The notes beneath the pieces are model-generated. The model saw nothing but the letters and a program-made list of their open reading frames with translations. It ran no database searches and was not told where the DNA came from. From Whitmania pigra (taxonomy: Eukaryota; Annelida; Clitellata; Hirudinida; Haemopidae): DNA of 64,000 nucleotides. The DNA lies in contig JAJTWR010000047.1 of NCBI GenBank assembly GCA_021613335.1, positions 1 to 64,000 on the forward strand, given 5' to 3'. The position numbers and the translations under genes are program-made. This document shows, one piece after another, positions 36,521-38,291 of the stretch. Every line of letters starts with the position of its first letter. Positions within the stretch are counted from its first letter, which is position 1.

Positions 36521-38291
36521 CTACACCAAACGTCCACACAAGATCCAATTCAATAATAGGACGACCAAGCACAGGATCTTGAAGCTTTCCGGAGAGTTTT
36601 TGACCCCTAGGGACGACCCAGGTTTCTAAAAAGCGGTTAGAATGATACCATGTTTCTGACCCAATGTAGGACAAACACCACAGCAAACTAATAACATTCC
36701 GAAAAATGCCACAAAAATAAAATAAATAACTATAATTAATAAGAAAAATCCATATCAATTATCAAATTATAAACAATTTCTTCCACTGGGCAATCTCATT
36801 TGATGCCCATGCCGCACTTGGCCACTAAAACTAAACTAAAAACTATAAAAAAAAAACGTAGACGGTGAGTGGTCACACAAAAAAGTAGTGCAAAAAGAGT
36901 TATAATTACCGAAACTGTTGACGGAACTTCGCTCGCTGTCTAAAATAAGCAAGTCAAGAAATGCAAGACGAACTTATACAGAAATTGAGTGTTCAAAAAA
37001 CAAAAATTCATTCCATCAATAATCCAAAATGAACCAACCTACCCTAGAAATATCTACTTTTTAACCAACTCCTCATATAACCATAGAAGTTTATCCCAAT
37101 TCATTGCTAGACTGGCTTTGTGGACAGTATGAAGATGTACCACCCACCCAAGAATCGAACATTCGTCAGAAAAAAAATGTCGATGCTTCACCAACTAGAC
37201 TATTAATTCCAAGCCTAAAGTACGCTTAGGCTACTAGTGATAGTAATAATATTGAGAATGTTAACATCAAAACTATGTTGTGCAGCATAACAATATTATT
37301 GAAATGAACAAAAAGTCAACCATTACCGTACTAATCTGAAAATAAGAAAAGTAAACAACTGAGCTAAAGTAAACAATCACATAAAATCACTTCTATCATA
37401 TGAATAAAAATTGAGCAACTACCTACCACAGACACGGCCGAATCCGGAGGTTCGCCATCAATCTGCAGAAACATCAAGAAATGACTGAGATCTTGGCCTT
37501 TTACGGAAAGACAAAACGGTAGTTATTATAGTTCCACACCCACCCATTCTTCAAAAATAGGTTCGCCATCCTGCAGAAAAATTAAGAAGTGACTGAGATT
37601 GGGGCCTTTTACGGAAAGGCAAAAATGTTATAAATGGAACATAGAAATTTTCCCAATTAATTGGAATCATCAATGGCCACAAGGATTTTGAAGTCAGTTC
37701 CTGCGTTGTGTTTCCATCCATTTACACAACATCTGATGCTTGTAAATAACGTAATTTCTGTGAATCATTGAGGAATAATAGCAACCTAATGCACCATAAT
37801 TTATTTTAATATAGTACTGATACACGTGAATAACTTTTCACATTCTACACAAAACATAAAAGTATGCATGCAATTAGACAGAGCTACACTTATGAAACCT
37901 TCGTTAGAAGGAAAATTTAAAAAGTCTTAACCCTTTTGAAGTTAATAATTAAACATAATTTATTAATTAGTCTTAGCTAATGTAAGGGAGCTCTAGCCAA
38001 TAATAGCAATGCTAAATCTTGTTAAGACCTGAAAATTTAAATTTGCGAAATGTAATTTTTTAATGTTTTATGTAATAAAATGATGGCAGCCTTGATTAAT
38101 TATGACAAAATTCTCGAAACCCAAACTTCTCCCTTGCAAACAAAAACATACCGACACGGTCACGAAGACGACTGAAACAGATAAATTTCTCAATTACGTC
38201 GATGATATCAATATATGTAAATATCTGAACGTTCGAACAAATTGAAGCTTGCAAACTTACCAGCAATCAATGCCAGCACGACAGCTCCCAT
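36521..38291 (-). CDS. Micro-exon gene: signal peptide, 9-36 bp symmetrical exons, C-terminal hydrophobic tail
   Basis: The exons are 38261-38291, 38152-38171, 37544-37570 (27 bp), 37427-37462 (36 bp), 37327-37335 (9 bp), 36910-36939 (30 bp) and 36521-36625. All have GT/AG borders. After the two leader exons, every internal exon is a multiple of three in phase 0. The spliced product is 85 residues. Exons 1-2 give the signal peptide MGAVVLALIAVVFVTVS. The middle is acidic then Ser/Thr/Val-rich (DGEPIFEEW; IDGEPPDSAVSV; IST; TASEVPSTVS). The last exon ends SFKILCLVVLLLNWILCG-RLV, a membrane segment or lipid-anchor signal. The 9-bp exon is the least certain. The plan resembles micro-exon genes described in parasitic flatworms. 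No sequence homologue is recognised. Confidence 0.6.

Follow-up and report, generated by a model that had tools for sequence, protein, structure and literature searches.

A candidate intron-rich gene with two duplication-linked micro-exons in a leech genome

We examined a minus-strand locus in the genome of the leech Whitmania pigra, at which an earlier note, made from the sequence alone, had proposed that seven short exons encode a small secreted or membrane peptide. The window analysed was the first 64,000 nucleotides of contig JAJTWR010000047.1. The locus probably contains the 5′ half of a genuine leech gene, small and rich in introns. This half consists of predicted leader exons and two micro-exons that are linked by a tandem duplication. 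This reading draws its support from the exon borders, the reading frame, the duplication, the joint splice and codon score, and the location of the candidate in an interval of its own.

Gene model and splice-site quality

Reading positions 36200–38700 directly, we found that seven minus-strand exons with GT/AG borders do join in frame to give 85 codons and a stop, as had been described. The exons measure 31, 20, 27, 36, 9, 30 and 105 nt, the last including the stop. The TATA-like box and AATAAA signal that were said to bracket the gene are also present (at 38411 and 36435, respectively), both as consensus matches only. The features of the model are as follows.

38405–38411, minus strand: TATA-like box, TATATAA; consensus match only
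38261–38291, minus strand: exon 1, coding part, 31 nt; ATG and first half of the predicted signal peptide; in every best model
38152–38171, minus strand: exon 2, 20 nt; completes the predicted 17-residue signal peptide
37544–37570, minus strand: micro-exon 3, 27 nt, phase 0, DGEPIFEEW; from splice scores and joint chain search
37427–37462, minus strand: micro-exon 4, 36 nt, phase 0, IDGEPPDSAVSV; from splice scores and joint chain search
37327–37335, minus strand: candidate micro-exon 5, 9 nt; good acceptor, weak donor, extent uncertain
36910–36939, minus strand: candidate micro-exon 6, 30 nt, uncertain; both sites ordinary
36762–36824, minus strand: alternative terminal exon; better acceptor (score 4.0), without codon support (P 0.48)
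36521–36625, minus strand: proposed last exon, hydrophobic tail; not supported, chosen by no best model
36430–36435, minus strand: AATAAA; consensus match only

Joined together, the seven exons translate as MGAVVLALIAVVFVTVS-DGEPIFEEW-IDGEPPDSAVSV-IST-TASEVPSTVS, followed by 34 residues and the stop. The first 17 residues, encoded by the 31 and 20 nt of exons 1 and 2, form a hydrophobic leader that a hydropathy filter identifies as signal-peptide-like; with a codon P of 0.0037, this part of the original model held up well. The leader ends at a position that signal peptidase could cleave by the –3,–1 rule, in which case the mature peptide would begin with the first micro-exon. There is no cysteine in the translated leader or in exons 3–6, and the predicted peptide is short and probably disordered.

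To score splice sites, we trained on 24 donors and 20 acceptors of the filamin gene in the same window and defined the quality of a site as the fraction of GT or AG dinucleotides across the window with an equal or higher score. The donors of exons 1 to 6 ranked at 1.3%, 4.7%, 3.9%, 8%, 66% and 20%, and the acceptors of exons 2 to 7 at 1.3%, 0.5%, 9.3%, 0.5%, 20% and 11%. By these ranks, exons 1–4 and the acceptor of exon 5 are good and the remaining sites are ordinary. The claim that the internal exons are short, phase-0 units with GT/AG borders is borne out for exons 3 and 4, by both their sites and the joint score described below; exons 5 and 6, with a weak donor in the former and ordinary sites in the latter, are uncertain.

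The four micro-exons together had a codon P of 0.033. The last exon (36625–36521) had a codon P of 0.41, like random stop-free DNA, and its acceptor is ordinary, so the hydrophobic C-terminal segment of the original model is not supported. With codon usage learned from filamin and three innexins, a scan flagged the exons of filamin and several in the RASSF region described below, and found no coding segment of at least 14 bits between 34.8 and 39.4 kb. An open reading frame at 36401–36105, considered as a missing 3′ exon, was rejected with a codon score of –29.

On one side of the candidate, filamin repeats run along the minus strand to a stop at 39489. On the other, a RASSF5-like gene lies on the same strand below 34.8 kb (~31.5–34.8 kb). 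Its Ras-association exons are above the Pfam cut-off and its C1-like exons below it, and the joined C1-like and Ras-association pieces match RASSF5 in PDB with an E value of 3.3e-10. These flanks, together with the codon scan, place the candidate in its own interval without a conventional exon.

If the locus is expressed as we envisage, transcription would begin ~30 nt downstream of the TATA box, a position that is now the border of an inserted retroposon. Splicing of exons 1 and 2 would yield the 17-residue leader, to be removed where the first micro-exon begins, and exons 3 and 4 would encode the first part of a short, acidic peptide that is secreted. Because each of these two exons is a multiple of three in phase 0, using exon 3, exon 4 or both would vary the peptide without a frame shift.

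Exon duplication and retroposon insertion

Beyond the features listed in the earlier note, we found that exons 3 and 4 carry a tandem duplication and that a ~45-bp retroposon has a copy in the leader, upstream of the ATG. The duplicated segments are as follows.

37559–37624, minus strand: upstream duplicate, with intron end, acceptor and exon-3 start; from sequence alignment
37448–37516, minus strand: downstream duplicate, with intron end, acceptor and exon-4 start; 85.5% over 69 columns

The duplicated unit comprises the intron end, polypyrimidine tract, acceptor and first four codons (DGEP), and its copies lie ~110 bp apart. The lengths of exons 3 and 4 are multiples of three, and both duplicates keep the same frame. 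Past DGEP the duplicates align poorly, perhaps because they have diversified or because the duplication ends there. Across the genome, the acceptor-plus-exon-start pattern has exactly two occurrences, each of them at the candidate locus, and the upstream intron pattern, allowing up to 3 mismatches, occurs once, also at this locus. No third copy was found by DNA or pattern search of the genome.

The retroposon emerged from a 2551-base genome query around the gene, which returned at least 51 matches: the locus itself and at least 50 others, all of which cover ~50 bp just upstream of the ATG. The count is a lower bound, with 40 of 175 candidates scored. The copy at this locus is as follows.

38315–38391, minus strand: copy of a ~45-bp dispersed retroposon, with core at 38378–38336 and an A-rich tail

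This copy sits between identical 12-bp direct repeats (38391–38380 and 38326–38315) and carries a short upstream ATG frame. We identified 32 copies of the 43-bp core in 21 sources (the candidate locus, L003–L021 and L052), 18 of them with direct repeats of at least 8 bp at their edges. In most copies the sequence preceding the core differs from copy to copy, and an A-rich or (TAAA)n tail follows it. The core has inverted ends, AGTCC...GGACT, and no parent element of greater length turned up in the loci examined. The copy in the leader begins 33 nt downstream of TATATAA, and a functional TATA box would place the transcription start at about the first base of the retroposon.

Chain searches and rival explanations

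To compare the region with chance, we searched for chains made up of a hydrophobic ATG exon, one more exon, four symmetric phase-0 exons shorter than 70 nt and a terminal exon, with site thresholds set so that the sites of the earlier note qualify. On splice score alone, the best chain in the region scored 27.1, a value reached by 7 of 1000 shuffles (3 of 500 in a separate run) and by none of 130 genomic segments. When the signal-peptide demand was dropped, the splice-only best was reached by 12 of 500 shuffles and 1 of 130 segments. The original seven-exon chain, with a splice score of 21.2, was matched by 22 of 500 shuffles and 2 of 130 segments. A denser splice-only scan, covering 284 kb of strand in 620 segments, found two other starts scoring at least 27.1, one at 15305 and one, inside filamin, at 43858. 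After this look elsewhere, the splice score alone is weak evidence.

We then optimised splice and codon scores jointly, and the region scored 32.7. None of 2000 shuffles reached this score (the largest was 24.7), a chance value that, like the others given here, is a guide because the training set was small and the region had been picked by the earlier note. The corresponding genomic comparison covered 70 chain starts in 734 segments, or 400 kb of strand, from the window and 27 loci. The region ranked 4th of the 70 starts; the three higher scores came from a chain at locus L006 and from two chains containing filamin exons, and the best score outside filamin and L006 was 14.2, versus 32.7 here. 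The best joint models for 2, 3, 4 or 5 micro-exons all keep exons 1–4, and their downstream exons vary. Exon 5 is placed at 37335–37321 or 37330–37316, and exon 6 (36939–36910) is retained only in the best five-micro-exon model.

Searches of protein, PDB and Pfam collections found no homologue of the candidate protein (best E value in PDB, 0.13), in agreement with the earlier failure to recognise one. The 85-residue product had no Pfam match up to an E value of 10, and a 71-residue variant had one, far below its cut-off. Genome searches by DNA, protein and pattern found no paralogue beyond the locus itself and the retroposon, with the proviso that a diverged paralogue could be missed, since the DNA searches score the best candidates only and a protein match needs more residues than a single micro-exon provides.

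These results bear on several alternatives. An AT-rich intergenic stretch with a tandem duplication would by chance offer GT/AG pairs and a short hydrophobic frame that is never translated, and we consider such an origin unlikely but far from negligible. The evidence against a gene fits it: the splice score alone is not exceptional when other places are scanned, equal splice-only chains starting at two other positions in 284 kb of strand; the codon scan yielded no segment of 14 bits or more; and neither a homologue nor a paralogue was found. Chance accounts less readily for a joint score that none of 2000 shuffles equals and that exceeds all scanned places other than filamin and L006, or for two duplicates that both keep one frame.

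The full seven-exon gene, with a run of four symmetric micro-exons and a hydrophobic C-terminal exon that may be held in the membrane, seems improbable to us, even though all of its borders exist in frame and its joint score of 26.8 exceeds the 24.7 of the best shuffle. It would also just reach the numbers given for micro-exon genes in the part of PMC7653826 available to us, namely at least seven exons, at least half of them micro-exons (<70 nt and divisible by three), and a run of at least four; of its run of 27, 36, 9 and 30 nt, good support is limited to the first two exons. The exon-5 donor, the exon-6 sites and the exon-7 acceptor are ordinary, the last exon lacks a codon signal and the best models pick other 3′ exons. 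We regard it as very improbable that the exons belong to the RASSF5-like gene, as upstream or alternative 5′ exons, or to a non-coding RNA. They do share the strand of the RASSF5-like gene, whose C1 and RA exons lie a few kilobases further downstream, but the leader codons score as coding, and a signal-peptide-like start is odd for a RASSF protein.

Known systems and genomic context

The micro-exon gene class was named in Platyhelminthes (PMC7653826). As described in the available parts of the sources, micro-exon genes of Schistosoma and tapeworms begin with a signal-peptide leader, continue with very short exons whose lengths are multiples of three, and encode no known domain (PMC7653826, PMC4413821, PMC5825161), and this organisation has been proposed to be a gain of parasitic flatworms, although it may be older (PMC4398949). 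The candidate in the leech resembles these genes in its predicted leader, its very short exons divisible by three and its lack of a known domain. It differs in its host and in having only two well-supported micro-exons, known from sequence alone. An N-terminal signal peptide is common in flatworm micro-exon genes without being present in all, and skipping of exons gives rise to their protein variants. A flatworm setting does not apply here, because Hirudin-family exons and 58 antistasin matches in the same assembly mark a leech.

The candidate also bears comparison with two leech families. Hirudin-family genes occur in the same genome and are likewise short and TATA-headed, encoding small secreted peptides in several short exons; unlike them, the candidate has no Pfam Hirudin match and no cysteine in its leader or exons 3–6. 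Antistasin-family genes encode secreted proteins of repeated small modules, reminiscent of the duplicated modules of the candidate. However, the Antistasin module in Pfam spans 26 positions, whereas the candidate modules are 9 and 12 residues long, cysteine-free and without a family match.

A broader and rather unlikely reading is that leeches, which are annelids, independently built flatworm-style micro-exon genes, in which a secreted peptide is assembled from duplicated, freely skippable exons of 9–36 nt that are invisible to ORF finders and yield many variants per locus. Short acidic modules such as DGEPIFEEW could then be swappable protein-binding segments in an anticoagulant-rich lineage. 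A confirmed gene at this locus would place a layout best known from parasitic flatworms in an annelid. It would argue that tandem duplication of exons can produce the layout independently wherever short secreted peptides diversify, and that such peptides can escape leech annotation that relies on long reading frames. The duplication of exons 3 and 4 offers a concrete place to study how micro-exons multiply. In the literature searched, we found no report of leech microexons with alternative splicing, and a search for leech salivary genes with short exons matched work on thrips and no leech case.

The assembly comprises 178,173,256 bases in 381 contigs. Its Hirudin-family exons, which lie in separate frames, exceed the Pfam cut-off of 25 bits (28.8 alone, 42.5 with neighbours), and the family has 3 genome matches at E values up to 1. 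The antistasin matches are often clustered. A sponge host, considered in view of bacterial-looking contigs, was rejected on the strength of 44 innexin matches; in agreement with this, SRCR has 28 matches and a pattern scan of 20 of the 94 cysteine-protease loci revealed no silicatein-like active site. COX1 has 4 matches, three of which (L022, L023 and L024) we take to be bacterial. Among at least 80 loci listed, those closest to the COX1 at L024 were from Myxococcota and other environmental bacteria. The bacterial-looking COX1 genes lie on contigs C115, C49 and C360, one of which is 2.94 Mb long. The available part of a report on the Hirudo medicinalis assembly also describes bacterial contigs (PMC7191736). 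Fragments of 18S rRNA lie inside the large contigs C235 (L052) and C184 (L053) and apparently do not represent whole rDNA units.

Within the window, filamin (~39.5–64 kb, minus strand) is a long gene with many tandem repeat exons. The segments at ~61.7–62.0 kb and ~63.3–63.6 kb agree at 98.7% and have a third matching copy at 13.0–13.4 kb, which points to mobile DNA in filamin introns. At 35571–36106, inverted arms of ~107 bp (88.8%) surround a degenerate TTAGGG-like tandem array (35761–35880), an arrangement that looks like a foldback or inverted-repeat element. Two LINE-type fragments, at 13.6–14.3 kb (plus strand) and 16.4–17.9 kb (minus strand), are 94% alike, and a reverse transcriptase domain lies at 17298–17921.
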